NCBI GenBank assembly: GCA_029262065.1 | Contig: JAJDAC010000002.1 | Span: 248,001 to 312,000 of the forward strand | Direction: 5' to 3' | Origin: Candidatus Krumholzibacteriota bacterium | GTDB taxonomy: Bacteria; Krumholzibacteriota; Krumholzibacteriia; JAJRXK01 | Length of the DNA: 64,000 nt | Part shown: positions 36,633 through 45,279 of the stretch, in pieces | How positions within the stretch are numbered: position 1 is the first letter of the stretch | Layout: every line of letters starts with the position of its first letter | The notes under the pieces: generated by a model | What the model saw: the letters and a program-made list of their open reading frames with translations, nothing else | Databases searched by the model: none | Told to the model about the DNA's origin: nothing | Made by a program: the position numbers and the translations under genes

Positions 36633-39600
36633 ATGCAAGCACGCTCGCTCCTCGTCCTACTGGCCGTCAACGCATTGGCATTGGCTGGCGCCCAAGCGTC
36701 GACTACCACGACGCCCGAGACCTCTGTCGCTATCGACTGGTCCGACTTCAACCTGCGTCGCGGCGTCTACGAATGGGCCACCGGCGATACCTTGGGTGCC
36801 CTGGAGTACCTGGAATCGGGACCCAGCACGGGGCGCGCCGCCCTACTGCGCGCGGAAGCAGAACGGCGACTCGGCAACCGCTACGATGCCCTACGACGAC
36901 AGGCAGACCAAGGCGAGGGATTCGACGCCTGGATCGCCTACGCCCAGCTCCTTGAGCATCATCGTCAGCTGGGCACCAGCGATGCCCCCGTTCCCATGGC
37001 CCCCGCGAACTTCGCTGATGCCGATTTCCTGTCGGCCGTATTGCGGTTCGAGCGGGGAGACCACGCCGGCGCGAGACAACAACTGGAGTCGTCGGCCGAG
37101 GGACCCTGGAAAGCAATGCGCCTGCAACTGCGGGCCCAGATCGCCGAAGCCGAAGGCGACGATGCGTGGACGTGGTGGCGCAAATTGGCCGACCATGAGC
37201 CCGGCGCCCAGGGCGATCGTCGCCTGGTCGACGCCGCCCGCCTCCGCGCCGCCGCCTACGCCGATGATCACCAGGAAGACCCGGCCCAGTGGTTGGAGTT
37301 GGTTGAGGCGGCCAGCCCGTTGTACGCACGTGCCCAACACATGCTGGGCCTGGTCGAGGTGTCCGCCGGCAATGAAGCGGGTTTGGAGCGACTGCGTGCG
37401 GTGGCCATGTCGCATCCAAACTACGACGGGCGGGCCGATCTTCTGCAGGCCCTGGGCGGCCAAGCGCTCGAGACATCGCAGTTCGACGATGCTCGCCACT
37501 TGTTTCTGCAGCTGGACGATGAATGGTCGATGCGAGCCACCGAGTTGGATCGGCTTGGAGAACGCGTAGATCTGTCCGATGTCTGGAAACAATGGGAACG
37601 ATCCTGGGCCACCGACGACGTTGCTTGGGCGCATGAGCCTTCGCTGCAGCTGGCCATCGATGCCGCCCGGGATCTCAAGCAGGCCGTGCCGCGCACCAAC
37701 GACATATCGACTCTGCCCGCCCCCATGCCCGCGGCCGGTTTCACCGCGCCGGTTCAACTGGATGACGCAGAGATCCGGCGTGACATGCGACTGACGATGG
37801 AGCGTCAACACAACGAGTATCTGCGTGCCCGCGAAGAGCGCACGCTGGCGAACGAATTGGAGCGCCTGGGCCGCTCTCGTCGCTACTTTCAACGTGGCGC
37901 CGACGAAATCGACTCCAGCCTTCGCGACCTCGATGCATCGGTTGCGCGCCTGGACTCAGTGCTGGCTACGTTGGAGATCCTGCTCGCCGACCTACGTGCG
38001 GTACGTGACGACGAAATCGACCGTATCGCGACCCGAGGTGCGCGCCTGTTGGCCCTGGGAACCACCAACGCCAACTACATCCGCTCTTTCATGCATTTCT
38101 ATATCGACGGACCCATGGGCAAACGCCTGCGCGACCTGCCCGAGGGCATTCCCCATCCGTCGGAGATCCTGCTGGAAGAACTGGAACTCAGCGGCATGAT
38201 CGAGGATTTCGTTCAGGTCTTCTCCGACCGCGCACCAGTTCGCGTGCAGCGGTCCAGCGACGAGATCTGGGAACCGCGCCTGATGGGCGCCGCCCCCGCG
38301 CTGGCCGCCCGCGCCAAGGAACAACAACGGTGGGCACTGGCCATGGCGGCCGCGGTCGACTCGAGCCTGGCCGCCACCACCAGTTCACCGCAACTGCTGG
38401 CCAGCCAGGCGGCGCTGGCCAACCTGGCCGCGAATGCAGACTCGCTTCAGCAGCGACAGAACGCCCTGCGCGACGTCACCCTGCGCGACGCCATCGCGCG
38501 AACCCGCGCAAACATGGACACCCGGCGTGAGGGTATCGACTATGGTCTTGCCGCCGCCCACTATGAGCTCACCGTCGCCCAGACCCAGGCCGACGTGCCG
38601 GTAGCTTCAAAACCCACGGCCGCGGCCATCGAGCACCTTCAACGATTTCTTGAGCGCTATCCCGATAGCCACGCGCGCGGCGAAAGCCGCTTCCGCCTGG
38701 CTGATCTTCTGCTACTGCAAGCGCGTGACGAGTTCCACGGCCGCATGGCCAACTATCTGGCCGCGCGTGAGAACGGCACGTCCGGCTCCATGGCCGTGCC
38801 CTTCCTGGACTACGAATCAGCCCTGGATCTCTATCGCGCGATCCTGGCGGAAGACACCGACTTTCCCCACCGCGATGCCACACTCTTCCATCTGGGTATG
38901 ATCCTCTCCGACGCCGTGGATCCGCAGGCCGAGGAATACCTCCAGGAACTCATTACCAGTTTCCCCGACGCGGAATTCGTACAACGCGCGCACCTGCGCC
39001 TGGCCGACAACCGCTTCGCCCAGAAAAACTTCGTAGCCAGCGCGCAGCAGTACGAGAAGGCCGCGCAGGGCGACGACAACGAGGCCCGGGCCATCGCTTT
39101 GTACAAACTGGGATGGAGCCACTTCAACACCGATAGCTTCGATCAGGCGGCCGTTGCGTTTGGCCGGCTGATGGACTTGTACGACGCGGACGCGCGTTTC
39201 GACACCTCGGTGGACCTACGGGGTGAAGCCCGCGACGATCTGATCCATGCGCTGGCCCGCGGTGGAGGCGCCTCGGCGTTTCTCGAGCACTTCGACTCGC
39301 AAGGAACGCGAGACTACGAGAAGTCGGTGCTGGGTGGCATTTCCCAGCTCATGCGTACGTTTGCCCTGTACGACGAAGCCACCGCTTCCGATCGGTTGTA
39401 TCTACAGAAGTACGCCACCGATCCGTCGGCGCTCGACGCCGCAACACGGCTCATCGACACGTACGAACGTGGCTTTGACAAGGAGCAGGCCAACGAAGCC
39501 CGCCTGGACGTGGCCCAGAAGTTCGTACCCAACGGCGACTGGTTCGAAACCAACGTGGCCGATTCGCTGCGAGCACAAGGACTTGAGTTCGCACGAACCT

Positions 39601-41363
39601 CGTATCGTACGGTAGCGCTGTATGAACACCGACAGGCGCGCGAAGAAGAGGCAAGCGCCCACGCCAACTGGAACGAGGCACTGGGGCTGTACGGCCAACT
39701 CATCACCAATTGGCCGGACCACGGAGAAACCCCAAGGTTCCACTACCTGGCCGGTGAGTGCGCGAGGGAATTGACCGATTTCGCCAGCGCCCTCGATCAC
39801 TACCGTGCCGCCGCGGCCTCCGACACGGCCAGTTTCCGTGAGGAAGCGGCCTGGGCCAGCGTGGCCGTCTGCGACACGTGGTACGAAACGTCGCGACCCG
39901 CCGGCGAACCCAACGCGGTCGGCGCCGATTCGCTGGCGACCCAGCTCATCGAGGAGGGACGCGCCTTCCTGACCAAACACCCGGCGGACAGCCGCGGGGC
40001 CGACATCCTCTGGCGCGAGGGAAACCTCTCGTTTGCCCACGGATGGCACGATGCGGCTGAAACCAGCCTACATGATTTCGTACGGGCCTATCCTCGTGAC
40101 GAGCGGGCGCCACGCGCGGCCCGCTTGCGTGCCGATTCGTTCTATCGTCGGGCCAGGTACCAGGACGCGGGTAGTGCCTACGAAGACGCGTTGCTGGTCT
40201 TGCGGGCCGCGGGCGAAGACTCGCTCGCCGCGCACGTGACCACGCTCATCCCCCACTCCTATTACAAGCACGCGGAATCGATCGCCGCCAGCGACTCCAC
40301 GGAAGGCCTGGCCAACGCCGCGGTTGCATTCGAGAACGTGGCCCAACGCTGGCCCGCGTTCGAGTTCTCACACCTGGCTCTGTATCAGGCGGGTCTGGGC
40401 CGGGCCAGTGCCGGTGAAGCCCCGCTGGCCGTGAGCGATTGGCAGCGTCTGATCGACACCTATCCCGAAAGCGAGTATCGCCAGGACTCGCTGCGTCAGA
40501 TCGCCCTTACCTGGGAAGCCGCGGGCCAGCCCCTGGCGGCCGCCCGCGCCTACGAGCGTTACTCGACGACATACCCCACCGAATCCGACGCGGCCGACGC
40601 GCTGATGAAGGCGGCCGATTTGCTGGAAGCGGGCGACGACCCAGTGGGCGCCGAGACCATACGCACCCAGTACCTGCAGCAGTATCCCGACGACTTCGAA
40701 ACGGCGCTGGAAATCCGTGAGAAACGGGCTCGTCGCGATCTGGCTCAGTTCGGCGCGTCTCCGGCGGGAATGGTGGCGCTGCTCGACCCTTCAGCCACGG
40801 TGCCGTCGGAACTGTCGCGCTACCTGACCCTGGCCAAGCAACATCCCGATCGCGCCGCCCCCGATATCCTGGCCCAGGTGGCATTCCTGGAGGCGGAACA
40901 GGAACTCGCGCGTTACACACAACTACGGCTCACGCAGCCGCTCGAACAGAGCCTGCAGCGTAAGCGCGATGCGTTGGACGCGACCCTGCAGAGCCTGGGC
41001 GCCTGCGCCCAACACTCAGTGGCCCCATGGGCCCAGGCCGCCGCGTATCGCGTGGGCGAAGCGCTCGTACATTTTGGCGACGCGCTGGTTCAGAGTGAGC
41101 GTCCGTCAGACCTGACTGGCGATGATCGACTGGCCTACGACGAGGTACTCGAAGAACAGAGCTGGGCATTCTACGACCGGGGCGAGGAAGCCTGGGCACA
41201 ACTACTACGCGAGCCCGGGTCCTCGGAAAGCGACGAAGTTCGCACGTGGCTCGAGAAGACACGGTCTTCGTTGTACCCCCGAGTGGCCCGCCGTTTCGCA
41301 CACCACCCCGAAGTTTCCTACCCGTTGGTTCCGGCGACGGAACCCGAAAACGCGGCACGGTAG
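36633..41363 (+). CDS. Giant periplasmic TPR protein
   Basis: 1,576 residues, the largest product in the window. A signal peptide (MQARSLLVLLAVNALALAGAQA) leads into TPR-like helical repeats over most of the length, with a coiled-coil region at ~385-465 (LERLGRSRRYFQRGADEIDSSL). Repeats include QYEKAAQGDDNEARAIALYKLGWSHF and ALDHYRAAAASDTASFREEAAW. Large periplasmic TPR proteins of this kind accompany the ExbB/ExbD/TonB-like Agl-Glt motors of myxobacteria. Here it precedes a TPR lipoprotein and such a motor on the same strand. No catalytic motif. Exact partner is unknown. Confidence 0.85.
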   Translation: MQARSLLVLLAVNALALAGAQASTTTTPETSVAIDWSDFNLRRGVYEWATGDTLGALEYLESGPSTGRAALLRAEAERRLGNRYDALRRQADQGEGFDAWIAYAQLLEHHRQLGTSDAPVPMAPANFADADFLSAVLRFERGDHAGARQQLESSAEGPWKAMRLQLRAQIAEAEGDDAWTWWRKLADHEPGAQGDRRLVDAARLRAAAYADDHQEDPAQWLELVEAASPLYARAQHMLGLVEVSAGNEAGLERLRAVAMSHPNYDGRADLLQALGGQALETSQFDDARHLFLQLDDEWSMRATELDRLGERVDLSDVWKQWERSWATDDVAWAHEPSLQLAIDAARDLKQAVPRTNDISTLPAPMPAAGFTAPVQLDDAEIRRDMRLTMERQHNEYLRAREERTLANELERLGRSRRYFQRGADEIDSSLRDLDASVARLDSVLATLEILLADLRAVRDDEIDRIATRGARLLALGTTNANYIRSFMHFYIDGPMGKRLRDLPEGIPHPSEILLEELELSGMIEDFVQVFSDRAPVRVQRSSDEIWEPRLMGAAPALAARAKEQQRWALAMAAAVDSSLAATTSSPQLLASQAALANLAANADSLQQRQNALRDVTLRDAIARTRANMDTRREGIDYGLAAAHYELTVAQTQADVPVASKPTAAAIEHLQRFLERYPDSHARGESRFRLADLLLLQARDEFHGRMANYLAARENGTSGSMAVPFLDYESALDLYRAILAEDTDFPHRDATLFHLGMILSDAVDPQAEEYLQELITSFPDAEFVQRAHLRLADNRFAQKNFVASAQQYEKAAQGDDNEARAIALYKLGWSHFNTDSFDQAAVAFGRLMDLYDADARFDTSVDLRGEARDDLIHALARGGGASAFLEHFDSQGTRDYEKSVLGGISQLMRTFALYDEATASDRLYLQKYATDPSALDAATRLIDTYERGFDKEQANEARLDVAQKFVPNGDWFETNVADSLRAQGLEFARTSYRTVALYEHRQAREEEASAHANWNEALGLYGQLITNWPDHGETPRFHYLAGECARELTDFASALDHYRAAAASDTASFREEAAWASVAVCDTWYETSRPAGEPNAVGADSLATQLIEEGRAFLTKHPADSRGADILWREGNLSFAHGWHDAAETSLHDFVRAYPRDERAPRAARLRADSFYRRARYQDAGSAYEDALLVLRAAGEDSLAAHVTTLIPHSYYKHAESIAASDSTEGLANAAVAFENVAQRWPAFEFSHLALYQAGLGRASAGEAPLAVSDWQRLIDTYPESEYRQDSLRQIALTWEAAGQPLAAARAYERYSTTYPTESDAADALMKAADLLEAGDDPVGAETIRTQYLQQYPDDFETALEIREKRARRDLAQFGASPAGMVALLDPSATVPSELSRYLTLAKQHPDRAAPDILAQVAFLEAEQELARYTQLRLTQPLEQSLQRKRDALDATLQSLGACAQHSVAPWAQAAAYRVGEALVHFGDALVQSERPSDLTGDDRLAYDEVLEEQSWAFYDRGEEAWAQLLREPGSSESDEVRTWLEKTRSSLYPRVARRFAHHPEVSYPLVPATEPENAAR

Positions 41364-41447
41364 GCGGCCCACGACTTGCAGAAATAGCCCGAACACGGCC
41401 CCCGCTACCAGCGCCGGGCCCACGCAATGTGAAACGACGAGGCATCG

Positions 41448-42374
41448 ATGGACATCGCGCTCAACATCGCTTCCCGATCGGCCCAGACTCGCGCTGGCGT
41501 TGGGGACTTGTCGACACGTTGCCGCGTGGCATGTCGCAATAGCGCGCCCAATGCAACATGGATGGCCGCGTTGTGCCTGTTGGTCGCGGCATGTGGTGGC
41601 CCGTCGGTGCAAACCGACCCCACGGAAATCGACACCGAGCTGACGCCCGAAAAGGTAGCGGCCCAGGTGGCCGAACATCGAGCGCGAGCCGTCGAGCAGC
41701 CCCACGAACCCTACTGGTTGTACAAGGCGGCCGAGACCCATTCCCGAGCCGGCCAATCCGTCGACGCTATTGCCGCGCTACGCGAAAGCCTGGCCGTCAA
41801 CGACAGCTACGAGCCATCGCTCTCCCTGCTCTCCAAGATCTACTACGTCTCCGGTCAACATCAGGCGGCTATCCAGCTGCTGGAAGATGTGCAGAGCCGG
41901 AACGGAACCCTGTCCGATGAACTACTGGCGGGCCTGGCCCTGAACTACGAGGCCCTGGGCGAATACGACACCAGCGATCCGCTGTTCGACACGTTGCGCC
42001 ACCGGGGATCCCGTGAATCTGCCGTGATCTATCACCTACTACAGGGTGAAAGCTTCCTCGAAGTTGGCGACCGTGCGTTTGCCGCGGTCGAAGCCAAACC
42101 GAACGTGGCCGCTAACCAGAACAACTTCGGCATTGCGTTGCTCTACCAGGGACGCCCCAAGGAAGCACGCGAGCGTTTCCTGCGAGCTTTGGAACTCGAC
42201 GCCGATCTGCCGGGCGCCATGTACAACATGGCCATCGTCGACAAGTTCTACTTCTTCGACGACGAATCCAGCCTCGAGTGGTTCACGCGGTATCAACAGA
42301 TTTCCGGTGATTTCGACCCCGACGGTCTCGCCGAGTTGCTGCAATTGGCTCCCGCAGAAGCGGTAGGGAGATAG
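41448..42374 (+). CDS. TPR lipoprotein (GltE-like context)
   Basis: 308 residues. An unusually long N-region (~38 residues) precedes a hydrophobic core and lipobox LLVAACGG (C49); a start at the inner ATG would be too short for a signal peptide, so the ATG at 41448 (GAGG upstream) is kept. Residues ~70-300 are TPR repeats (EPYWLYKAAETHSRAGQSVD, NFGIALLYQGRPKEARERFL). It precedes the motor genes by only two bases plus a small gene, and is likely an outer-membrane-tethered adaptor of the ExbB/ExbD/TonB complex. Confidence 0.82.
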   Translation: MDIALNIASRSAQTRAGVGDLSTRCRVACRNSAPNATWMAALCLLVAACGGPSVQTDPTEIDTELTPEKVAAQVAEHRARAVEQPHEPYWLYKAAETHSRAGQSVDAIAALRESLAVNDSYEPSLSLLSKIYYVSGQHQAAIQLLEDVQSRNGTLSDELLAGLALNYEALGEYDTSDPLFDTLRHRGSRESAVIYHLLQGESFLEVGDRAFAAVEAKPNVAANQNNFGIALLYQGRPKEARERFLRALELDADLPGAMYNMAIVDKFYFFDDESSLEWFTRYQQISGDFDPDGLAELLQLAPAEAVGR

Positions 42375-42376
42375 AT

Positions 42377-42625
42377 ATGTTTTCCGCACCCGCTCTGGCG
42401 CTGGCCCTTTGGTTGTCGTCCACCGGCGCGACCGGCCAGGCCCGAACTCTCGATGCTATCACCATCGAGGGTGAGATCGATATGCCCGAAGTGCTCTTCA
42501 TCACCGCACGCGATCAGTATCGCTACATGGATTACCTTCACCGTCGCTACGACAAGAGCATGGCCCAGTTGGGCCTCGATGTGCGCTTGCCACGGCGACT
42601 CGAGTTGCTGACCAAGGAGAAATGA
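42377..42625 (+). CDS. Small secreted protein of the TonB-motor operon
   Basis: 82 residues with AGGGAG six bases before the ATG. It has a signal peptide (MFSAPALALALWLSSTGATG-QA) and a compact domain, TITIEGEIDMPEVLFITARD followed by a basic helical tail. I recognise no named family. Its position between the TPR lipoprotein (2-base gap) and ExbB (1-base gap) argues for a role as a small periplasmic linker in the complex. Confidence 0.75.
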   Translation: MFSAPALALALWLSSTGATGQARTLDAITIEGEIDMPEVLFITARDQYRYMDYLHRRYDKSMAQLGLDVRLPRRLELLTKEK

Positions 42626-42626
42626 C

Positions 42627-43265
42627 ATGGATGCCTTGTCGACCGTCGCGTCCTTCTTCCGTAGCGGCGGACCGTTCATGTTCGTCATCATGGGCACCGC
42701 TGTCCTGATTCTGGCCATCGCCGCCGAACGCCTTTGGGTACTTTCCCGGGCGGGGGCGTTGAACCACGGAAAAATGATGAAGGACCTCATGCGTCACGTT
42801 CAGTCGGGCGATCTAAGCGCGGCTTCGCAGGTGGCCAAGAAGGTCAAGAGCCCGGCCGGGCGCGTGGCGTACGCCATCGTGTCCAACGGCACGAGCAACG
42901 AGGAAAGCCTCAACAACGCCGCCGATGGAGCCGCCGTCGTGGTGCTGCCGCCGCTTTCCAAGCGTCTGCCGCACCTGGGCATGTTGGCCAACGTGGCTAC
43001 GCTGCTGGGCCTGCTGGGTACCATCTTTGGTCTAACCCAGGCGTTCTCGGCGGTAGGCGCGGCCGACGCGTCGGAACGCTCGGCCTTCCTGGCCGCCGGT
43101 ATTTCGCAGGCCCTGAACACCACGGCATTCGGTTTGATGGTGGCCGTACCCGCCATGGTCATCCACGGCTTTCTGGTGGGCAAGGTCGACGCCATCGTCG
43201 AACAGACCGATGAGGTAAGCGTCCGCCTGATCCGGGTCATGACCGGCCGTAGCGACAACTTCTAG
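42627..43265 (+). CDS. MotA/TolQ/ExbB proton-channel protein
   Basis: 212 residues with three transmembrane helices: ~15-38, ~118-142 and ~160-185. The family core is LPHLGMLANVATLLGLLGTIFGLTQAF and the third helix ISQALNTTAFGLMVAVPAMV. It forms the pentameric stator channel with the ExbD proteins that follow. Conversion of proton motive force to movement of the TonB-like partner is the known job of the family. Resembles AglR-type genes in gene order. Confidence 0.92.
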   Translation: MDALSTVASFFRSGGPFMFVIMGTAVLILAIAAERLWVLSRAGALNHGKMMKDLMRHVQSGDLSAASQVAKKVKSPAGRVAYAIVSNGTSNEESLNNAADGAAVVVLPPLSKRLPHLGMLANVATLLGLLGTIFGLTQAFSAVGAADASERSAFLAAGISQALNTTAFGLMVAVPAMVIHGFLVGKVDAIVEQTDEVSVRLIRVMTGRSDNF

Positions 43266-43306
43266 TTCGAACACGACCCTAGTCACTACCGGAAGACCAG
43301 AACGCC

Positions 43307-43756
43307 ATGGCACGTAGGAAACGAGGCTATCGACAGTTGGTCGAGGCCGACCTCGACATCATGCCGCTCATGAACCTGTTCGTGGTGCTGATTCCCATGC
43401 TGCTGTTGTCGGCTGTGTTCATCGAACTGTCGTCGATCGAGATGAATCTACCGTCTCCCGACGCCACCGCATCGACACCAAAGCAACGACTGGAACTGGC
43501 GGTCACGATTGCCGACGAGGCCTACGTCGTGGAAGGACGCGGGCTACGGAGGCAGAAGATCGAGCGTGACGCCGATGCGGCGTACGACGAACTCCAGGAC
43601 ACGTTGGAGACGATCGCCTCGGGGCATCCCGACAACAAGGAGATCGTCATCGTCTCGCCGGGCGATACCGAGTACCAGGAACTGATCACGGTCATGGACA
43701 TATCGCGCGAGGCGGGCATGCCAGCCATATCACTCGTAGGCGCGTCCGCGCGCTAG
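43307..43756 (+). CDS. ExbD/TolR-like protein lacking the membrane Asp (N23)
   Basis: 149 residues, one transmembrane helix at ~18-40 and a periplasmic domain. In ExbD/TolR the helix carries an essential aspartate in PFIDV; here the same place reads PLMNLFVVLI, so the Asp is Asn23 (codon AAC). The periplasmic part (NLPSPDATASTPKQRLELAV ... IVSPGDTEYQELITVMDI) is otherwise normal. It would pair with the second ExbD of the operon, which keeps the Asp. Confidence 0.9.
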   Translation: MARRKRGYRQLVEADLDIMPLMNLFVVLIPMLLLSAVFIELSSIEMNLPSPDATASTPKQRLELAVTIADEAYVVEGRGLRRQKIERDADAAYDELQDTLETIASGHPDNKEIVIVSPGDTEYQELITVMDISREAGMPAISLVGASAR

Positions 43757-43770
43757 AAGAGCGACTCCCA

Positions 43771-44265
43771 ATGTCACGACGCAAACGCCACCTGGGCCAT
43801 CGCGGGCACCGCAAGCACCAGCCGCTGCGTATAACTTCGATGATGGACATCCTGACCGTATTGCTCTTGTTCCTGCTCAAGAGTTTCGTGGTCGACGGTG
43901 AAGCACATACTCCCGCCGCCGGGGTCGAGCTTCCTTTGTCGTCGAGCACTATCAAACCCGAGTCTTCCATCGTCATCGCCATAAACGGCGGTGACATACT
44001 GGTGGCCAACGAGCTGGTAGCCAGGGTCACCGCGTCGAACGCCAACACCGATATGATGATCGAGGAACTGGCCGACCGATTGGAGGCCACCCGTGATCAA
44101 ACCATCGCCTTGCACGGGCGTCGCGGCGACGAGGTGGAGTTCGACGGCAAGATCACCATCCAGGGTGATCGCGACATGCCGTTTCAGATTCTTCAGCGCG
44201 TAATGTTCACCTGCAACATGATTGGCTACGACAATATTGCGTTGGCCGTCATCCAGTCGTCGTAG
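43771..44265 (+). CDS. ExbD/TolR-like protein with intact membrane Asp (D26)
   Basis: 164 residues. A basic N-terminus (MSRRKRHLGHRGHRKHQ) is followed by a membrane helix with the proton-carrying Asp in TSMMDILTVLLLFLLKSF (D26). A lysine (K37) inside the helix end is unusual. The periplasmic ExbD domain follows (LADRLEATRDQTIALHGRRGDEV). With ExbB and the Asn-variant ExbD, this is likely the catalytic subunit of a heterodimeric ExbD. Confidence 0.9.
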   Translation: MSRRKRHLGHRGHRKHQPLRITSMMDILTVLLLFLLKSFVVDGEAHTPAAGVELPLSSSTIKPESSIVIAINGGDILVANELVARVTASNANTDMMIEELADRLEATRDQTIALHGRRGDEVEFDGKITIQGDRDMPFQILQRVMFTCNMIGYDNIALAVIQSS

Positions 44266-44274
44266 GAAGGGACC

Positions 44275-45279
44275 ATGGTAAAGCACACGGTTCCCCTGAA
44301 GTACCGCGAGCCGATCATCGGCGCGATGGATCGCGTCTATCGCAAGTCGCTGACCACGTCGTCTATCGCGGCCGTGGTGCTGCTGGCCATCATCTACATC
44401 ATTCCCCAGCGCGCGCCTGAAGTCGCCACGGTGGAAGACATTCCCGAGCGCTTCGCGAAGCTCATCCTGGAAAAGCCCAAGCCGCCCAAAGTGGTGACAC
44501 CGGTGGTGCCCGAATCAAATCCCATCGAAGACAAGATCGCCGAGGTCGCCGAACCCGAACCCGAAAAGCCCAAGCCCCGACCCGAACGCCCCAAACCCAC
44601 GCGCCGATCGGTGACGAAGCCCAAGGTCGACGTAGATGCGGGCAAACAAGGTCGTGAGCGGGCCAAGCGAGACGTGGAAACCAAGCTCGCGTCGGTCACC
44701 GGCTCGGTCGACAAGGTGCTCGACAATATATCTTCCGCATTGCCAGCCTCGGGTGACGCCAAGCCCACATCGCGGCGCCCCTCTCGACGTCGCTCGGTGC
44801 GCAAGGGTCGCGGCGGATCTGACATCGGTCAGGTCGCGACCGCCCAGACCGGTTCGAGTGCCGATGTTACGGGTTCGGCCATTGGCGGATCGCCCATCTC
44901 CATTGCCCAGATCGAAGATGTCGAGATCGCCGATGGCGACGGTGGCGGGGGCGGCGGCGGATCGAACTCGGGCGGATCTGGCGGCGAGCTCCGGAGCAAT
45001 CAATCGTTGCTGAGTGTCGTGCGCCGATACGCGCCGGGCATCCAGTACTGCTACGACAACCAGCTCAAAAGCAACCCGAACCTGCGCGGCAAGGTGGTTG
45101 TAAGCCTTACCGTATCAGCCACGGGCAAAGTGCTCGAAGCCATCGTGGTTCAGGACTCCCTGGGGTCGAAAGCCGTAACCGAGTGTGTGTTGGGGCAGAT
45201 ATTCGGCTGGAAATTCCCGAAGATCGCAACCGGCGACGTAACCTTCAAGACGCCGTTCGTCTTCACGCCACCCAACTAG
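44275..45279 (+). CDS. TonB-like protein with AgmX/PglI-type C-terminal domain
   Basis: 334 residues. Short cytoplasmic N-terminus, one membrane helix (~26-44, IAAVVLLAIIYIIP), a Pro/Lys/Glu-rich region (~60-115), a Gly-rich linker (~220-237) and a C-terminal domain of ~90 residues (SLLSVVRRYAPGIQYCYDNQL, VVVSLTVSATGKVLEAIVVQD, WKFPKIATGDVTFKTPFVF). The end matches the AgmX/PglI C-terminal family of myxobacterial gliding proteins; the two Cys (QYCYD, TECVL) probably form a disulfide. It should link the ExbB/ExbD motor to the outer envelope. Confidence 0.88.
   Translation: MVKHTVPLKYREPIIGAMDRVYRKSLTTSSIAAVVLLAIIYIIPQRAPEVATVEDIPERFAKLILEKPKPPKVVTPVVPESNPIEDKIAEVAEPEPEKPKPRPERPKPTRRSVTKPKVDVDAGKQGRERAKRDVETKLASVTGSVDKVLDNISSALPASGDAKPTSRRPSRRRSVRKGRGGSDIGQVATAQTGSSADVTGSAIGGSPISIAQIEDVEIADGDGGGGGGGSNSGGSGGELRSNQSLLSVVRRYAPGIQYCYDNQLKSNPNLRGKVVVSLTVSATGKVLEAIVVQDSLGSKAVTECVLGQIFGWKFPKIATGDVTFKTPFVFTPPN

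Follow-up and report, generated by a model that had tools for sequence, protein, structure and literature searches.

A conserved tandem ExbD pair with a single proton-binding aspartate in a putative bacterial envelope motor

The stretch of 64,000 nucleotides from a Candidatus Krumholzibacteriota bacterium that was analysed here (the window) harbours two adjacent exbD genes, and the canonical ExbD/TolR membrane-helix aspartate is absent from the first product, ExbD1 (Asn23), and present in the second, ExbD2 (Asp26). Our comparisons strongly support the view that each ExbD pair has one protonatable site by conserved and selected design, because the pairing is kept across phyla, has two origins and goes together with a membrane helix that is the best-conserved part of ExbD1. 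The original prediction had gone further and placed this single protonatable residue in an ExbD heterodimer; on the same evidence the part concerning one site per pair stands, whereas the heterodimer is suggested by the gene arrangement. Judged from the sequences, this motor deviates from AglRQS precisely in that one of the two ExbDs lacks the Asp, while the gene set itself is the published Agl-Glt core complex.

Together with five other genes, the exbD genes form an intact cassette on the + strand (36633-45279). It starts with a large and a second TPR protein, continues with a small secreted-looking protein, ExbB and the two ExbDs, and ends with a TonB-like protein whose C-terminal domain is of the AgmX/PglI type. 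The first gene (36633..41363, +) encodes a large TPR protein of 1576 aa (Pfam TPR), homologues of which were found at the same place in six of seven relatives by BLAST and in 68 of the 80 wider loci described below by profile matches. The second TPR protein (41448..42374, +) has a lipobox-like start and is weakly GltE-like (25.6 bits against a cut-off of 225); a counterpart is present in 7/7 relatives and 51/80 wider loci. The small secreted-looking protein (42377..42625, +) carries the motif I-E-G-x(4)-P-x-x-L-F-I and has a BLAST homologue in 6/7 relatives, and in Pfam and NCBIfam it matched no family above cut-off. It is followed by the ExbB/TolQ-type pentamer subunit (42627..43265, +; Pfam MotA_ExbB, 83.9 bits) and by exbD1 (43307..43756, +) and exbD2 (43771..44265, +), both intact open reading frames, located as originally predicted and lying 14 nt apart in one operon. 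The last gene (44275..45279, +) encodes a TonB-like force transducer with the AgmX/PglI C-terminal domain (NCBIfam NF033768, 91.3 bits, cut-off 40), and a TonB-like match is present in 70 of the 80 wider loci.

Both ExbDs are recognised by the Pfam ExbD family PF02472 (67.3 bits for ExbD1 and 52.7 bits for ExbD2, cut-off 25.4). When compared to the NCBIfam ExbD equivalogs of TonB-ExbB-ExbD uptake systems, ExbD1 scored 30.4 and 28.9 bits, below the cut-offs of 123.45 and 152.95. ExbD1 has a predicted TolR/ExbD fold: the modelled periplasmic domain superposes on TolR 5by4 with a Z of 12.6 over 84 residues at 2.5 A, and the helix of the model is of middling confidence. Sequence searches of the PDB returned only TolR/ExbD and TolQ/ExbB chains; Foldseek matches beyond TolR/ExbD (MreB, ribosomal proteins) were taken as common arrangements and set aside. 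A scan of viral contigs found no relatives of ExbD1.

The claim that Asn23 occupies the essential membrane Asp position of ExbD1, and Asp26 that of ExbD2, was confirmed by the codons (AAC at 43373..43375 and GAC at 43846..43848, both +) and by profile alignment. In an alignment of the ExbD1-orthologue profile with solved TolR and ExbD chains, N23 falls on the D of the TolR 'PLLDV' and of the ExbD 'PFIDV' motif. The alignment revealed no alternative acid at the membrane position of ExbD1: D15 and D17 lie on the cytoplasmic side and E40 at the periplasmic end, unconserved. Among 151 ExbD1 proteins of the Asn/Ser class, residues 18-42 contain no conserved acid, and another acid filling the pore position was thus rejected by both profile alignment and residue conservation. 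Sequencing error was dismissed as the source of N23, as Asn occurs in 8/8 orthologues. Asn as background noise among ExbDs was likewise rejected, since 64/64 control ExbDs encoded in the genomes of relatives (27/27 pairs being Asp/Asp, plus 10 single ExbDs with Asp) carry the Asp.

An ExbD1 match of any kind was obtained in 43 of 78 relatives, and seven of these carry an evident orthologue, with an E value of 3e-22 or lower. Among these near relatives of the same family and class, window included, Asn is found in 8/8 ExbD1 and Asp in 7/7 ExbD2, the eighth being cut by a contig end. The genes around ExbD1 are likewise conserved. A wider survey started from the neighbouring ExbB, which served as bait for 84,980 species genomes and made the choice of loci independent of the ExbD residue; the best 80 of 583 confirmed loci were kept. 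The alignment of tandem ExbD pairs that had been proposed along with the original prediction revealed a conserved one-Asp asymmetry: among these best 80 loci, 64 are Asn/Asp, 4 Ser/Asp and 10 Asp/Asp, one has Asn alone (L123) and one is without a pair (L125). Two adjacent exbD genes are present in 78 of them. By record titles and NCBI ranks, the loci are distributed over Gemmatimonadota, Eisenbacteria, Krumholzibacteriota, Latescibacterota, KSB1, Fibrobacterota, Nitrospirota, Acidobacteriota, Bacteroidota, Bdellovibrionota, Pseudomonadota and others, and most of them have the same neighbouring genes. There is a small overlap between the wide set and the near relatives, L047 being the same record as L056, and L043 almost identical to L052.

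Further sampling gave a similar picture. The class to which the genome of L104 belongs (Thiotrichaceae; presumably Gammaproteobacteria) was sampled with 321 genomes. This ExbB was found in 68 of them with an E value of 1e-40 or better, and all 79 ExbB matches in these genomes, one of which (L234) is L104 again, are followed by an adjacent ExbD pair, Asn/Asp in 78 cases and Asp/Asp in one. Nine genomes from other samples contributed 30 loci with 11 pairs (4 N/D, 3 S/D, 2 C/D and 2 D/D), 18 single ExbDs with Asp and one locus without a match. As Asn, Ser and Cys are all seen at the first ExbD, the conserved trait is the absence of a carboxylate; as far as the sequences tell, the first ExbD tolerates Asn, Ser and Cys, and Asp rarely. 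The baits were taken from Asn/Asp operons, and all these shares describe this ExbB family rather than ExbD pairs at large. Asp/Asp occurs in 11 of 166 sampled family members, so the family does not require the one-carboxylate state. Individual loci depart from the usual layout. In Oleiphilus (L123:8639-9160) an Asn ExbD is followed directly by a TonB-like gene, with no Asp ExbD in the operon, and the first ExbDs of the related operons L206 and L208 have Cys instead of Asp. A Bdellovibrio genome (G080, L084) has three paralogous ExbB-ExbD-ExbD sets (L207, L212 and L221), two of them Asp/Asp and one Ser/Asp.

With the D/D loci removed, 151 pairs of the Asn/Ser class remained, in which the ExbD1 residue is Asn in 147 and Ser in 4, and the ExbD2 residue is Asp in all 151. 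In these pairs the share of the commonest residue is 0.78 in the helix of ExbD1 compared to 0.42 in its periplasmic part, and 0.74 compared to 0.47 in ExbD2. That the helix is the best-conserved part of ExbD1 fits a pore helix, and not a decaying or pore-excluded copy. A membrane proline, P30 in the window (codon CCC, 43394..43396, +), lies at position +7 from N23. In the 80-locus survey it is present in 65/65 Asn and 4/4 Ser first ExbDs, with Phe in 10/10 Asp ones; in the class sample it is present in 73 of 78 Asn first ExbDs (five lack it) and the Asp first ExbD has Phe, and in the nine-genome set it is found in 8/9 non-Asp first ExbDs, the exception being L204. On the ExbD tree, only two independent pairs on well-supported branches bear on whether the proline and the missing Asp are independently associated, and no significance was obtained; the match between the two would thus mostly reflect shared ancestry.

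The ExbB partner was compared to E. coli numbering by matching motif spacing. Thr132 and Thr166 are invariant in 166/166 family members, which suggests that the proton path remains. The Glu of the third helix is found in only one of the 166, the window ExbB having Q161; for the E. coli protein, the passage of PMC8599685 that deals with this Glu calls it essential and its function unclear. Val, Gln, Ile and other residues occupy the position in the family, and a conserved Asn is located two residues before the conserved Thr.

The genome of the window encodes ten ExbDs, as four tandem pairs and two singles, and a second pair with one Asp lies on contig C14 at ~33.3-34.1 kb (L048:9264-10120), here in the order Asp then Asn. 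The operon of this pair also encodes a 1002-aa TPR-like protein and ExbB. In relatives this second family is D/N at 23 of 24 loci, with one D/D (L144), and at a further 3/3 loci, giving 26 of 27 in total. What it has in common with the ExbD1/ExbD2 family is an ExbB with two ExbDs, one of them without Asp. In contrast to that family, its order is reversed, the Pro at +7 is missing, the third-helix Glu of ExbB is kept (26/26) and it occupies a separate place on the ExbD tree. This tree, built from 108 rows after masking of the two trait residues, sets the two Asn groups apart and requires a minimum of four changes between Asp and non-Asp; the base of the ExbD1 clade is weakly supported (50). If Asp were ancestral, this would amount to two losses and two returns, one in Nevskia in the first family and one at L144 in the second. 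The first ExbDs of L114, L122 and L130 (Nevskia) and of L311 apparently went back to Asp, with Phe replacing the Pro at +7. A larger ExbB tree places one more D/D row, L311, within the Asn class; here the D/D label has to change five times, and at least two of these changes are forced by well-supported branches. Several D/D rows sit on long branches. By these comparisons the one-Asp design evolved at least twice, the second origin being independent of the first.

We propose that the cassette probably encodes a proton-driven motor of the ExbB5-ExbD2 kind with a heterodimeric ExbD1/ExbD2 axle, a single titratable Asp and 5 protons per turn. The heterodimer and its one-site rotary mechanism are likely; the pairing of ExbD1 with ExbD2 inside a single ExbB pentamer is inferred from the operon, in which both share one ExbB. 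The assembly would then be 5:1:1 (ExbB:ExbD1:ExbD2). At the pore site, the ExbD1 half of the axle (Asn, and Ser or Cys in relatives) would never be protonated or charged, and the ExbD2 half, with the sole titratable Asp, would do the chemistry. Each pass of the single Asp by an ExbB subunit would couple one proton, so that a turn would take 5 protons in steps of 72 degrees instead of 10 in steps of 36. ExbD1 would serve as a permanently neutral, proline-kinked half-axle that keeps register and extends into the periplasm, and the work would be passed to the AgmX-type TonB protein and, via the TPR proteins, to the outer membrane.

In the turnstile model, as described in PMC9389320, protonation swaps between two sites with 36 degrees per proton and 10 protons per turn, and MotB D22N is called a protonation mimic in the same source. 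We coded the turnstile rule as a toy model, in which the rates are arbitrary and only the ratios follow from the rules. Given two Asp, it used 10.0 protons per turn. When one site was made permanently neutral but still had to obey the rail rule, there was no rotation, and release of that site from the rails gave 5.0 protons per turn at a similar speed. If the N/D motor rotates, the strict turnstile model cannot be general. Several points speak against this reading: in the sister motor of Myxococcus, AglQ D28N is fatal, with proton conductance abolished, motility paralysed and sporulation blocked as described in PMC3858216; the strict rail rule gave no rotation in the toy model; L123 has an Asn ExbD without a second ExbD in its operon; L125 is without any tandem pair; and D/D members occur inside the family.

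Other arrangements were weighed against this heterodimeric axle. The motor might be an ExbD2 homodimer with two Asp, leaving ExbD1 as an accessory outside the pore that binds peptidoglycan or TonB or acts as a regulator. We regard this as unlikely, though it deserves some weight: ExbD2 has the Asp and the helix of a canonical ExbD, and the two exbD genes differ in length, are weakly similar and could have separate partners. However, the membrane helix with N or S at the pore position is the most conserved part of ExbD1, a single ExbB gene serves both proteins, and the exbD genes are adjacent in 78/80 and 79/79 loci. The strict pairing, the fixed gene order and the conservation of the helix also suit a fixed partner better than an inhibitor, which is what ExbD1 would be if assembly were mixed, the ExbD1/ExbD2 ratio setting the shares of D/D, N/D and N/N axles and ExbD1 acting as a dominant-negative throttle. 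Such a throttle is in keeping with the inactivation of AglQ by Asn, by which N/N and perhaps N/D axles would be silent, and with the existence of D/D family members; but with the genes 14 nt apart in one operon no separate control is visible, and we consider it very unlikely. That the N/D motor does not rotate, its single Asp powering a rocking or pulling stroke on TonB, would agree with the toy model, in which a strict two-site turnstile with a permanently neutral site stands still, and with the conserved membrane proline of ExbD1 that is absent from D/D relatives. The ExbB Thr positions, on the other hand, are those of the rotary family, which leaves a non-rotary stroke distinctly improbable.

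Two further explanations were weighed. In favour of ExbD1 being a decaying duplicate that lost its Asp by drift, Asn is a single transition away from Asp (AAC/GAC). Yet Asn has persisted in many phyla; replacement by S and C does occur, but the Asn class shows only two apparent reversions to D, and the ExbD1 helix is highly conserved, which makes drift scarcely credible. A replacement acid elsewhere in ExbD1 or ExbB is highly improbable as well: the acids D15 and D17 lie near the start of the helix, but D-type ExbDs have acids there too and the alignment places them on the cytoplasmic side, no acid is conserved in ExbD1 18-42, and the ExbB family is without even the third-helix Glu.

Put in its most general form, namely that rotary envelope motors whose axle is an obligate heterodimer with a single proton site, and which use 5 protons per turn, arose at least twice in bacteria, the proposal is a tentative one that we doubt slightly more than we believe. 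If true, it would contradict a strict two-site turnstile, which confines any neutral site like a protonated Asp, and would allow the competing models of 5:2 motors to be told apart. It bears on the requirement of 5:2 motors for both Asp, on the number of ions used per turn and on a possible AglQ/AglS heterodimer. As a natural motor with one Asp per pair is widespread, also in named isolates, such questions become testable, and the axle subunits are genetically distinguishable, so that each site can be changed alone.

The likeness to the Agl-Glt motor of myxobacteria, which had also been pointed out in the original prediction, holds for the gene set. PMC3169522 describes a 'core complex' of seven 'group B' genes, for homologues of GltC, GltD, GltE and GltG and of AglR, AglQ and AglS, that form a single cluster in Geobacter and in non-deltaproteobacteria, together with an extra gene that Myxococcales and Bdellovibrionales lack. 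The window cassette agrees with this group B set, with ExbB, two ExbDs, TonB-like and TPR proteins in one cluster; judged by sequence, the operon corresponds to this Agl-Glt-related complex and is not AglRQS. By its distribution, the small gene upstream of ExbB (42377-42625 in the window) is a candidate for the extra gene of PMC3169522: a G-x(3-5)-P motif, written after seeing examples and carried by 5/6786 other ORFs, is found in a small gene 5' of ExbB in 41/66 N/D or S/D loci but in 0/10 D/D loci, and L123 lacks it as well. The count omits L125 and two of the 80 loci in which the upstream sequence is short. GltG has an FHA domain. The GltG equivalog reached 48.8 bits in the window, below its cut-off of 650, and in 118 genomes of a phylum sample searched for genuine Myxococcus AglRQS no GltG was found above cut-off. 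In Pfam the window TonB-like protein gave no FHA match. As a possible general mark of D/D types, FHA was looked for in seven proteins: the TonB-like proteins of two Bdellovibrio-type D/D loci have the domain, four others have a TonB match without FHA, the L058 protein matched nothing, and the Nevskia D/D type lacks FHA.

AglRQS-Glt of Myxococcus xanthus (PMC3169522, PMC3858216, PMC9389320) has in common with the window one ExbB-type and two tandem ExbD-type proteins, an AgmX/PglI-type TonB and TPR proteins. The likeness does not extend to the ExbD residue, which for AglQ and AglS was taken from the papers rather than from their sequences: AglQ has the essential Asp28 and AglS is also said to have the Asp, whereas ExbD1 has Asn23. 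The state that kills AglRQS when introduced by D28N would therefore be the normal state of the window motor. According to the passages of a review that treat AglQ and AglS (PMC9389320), both have the Asp and it is unknown whether they hetero- or homodimerise; in PMC9120999 they are speculated to be two coupled subunits.

Tandem exbD1-exbD2 genes as in the window are also found in the TonB operons of Xanthomonas and Sphingobium. Unlike in the window pair, Asp25 is described as conserved in both ExbDs of Sphingobium SYK-6 (PMC8599685). Among the titles and opening abstract lines of the open-access PMC papers listed by our searches, we found no report of ExbD pairs with one missing Asp. With the 5:2 rotary motors TolQR, ExbBD and MotAB the window system has in common the Pfam families, the ExbB Thr residues and a TolR-like periplasmic fold. 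However, the axle of these motors consists of identical subunits with two Asp, whereas the window pair consists of two different subunits with one Asp.
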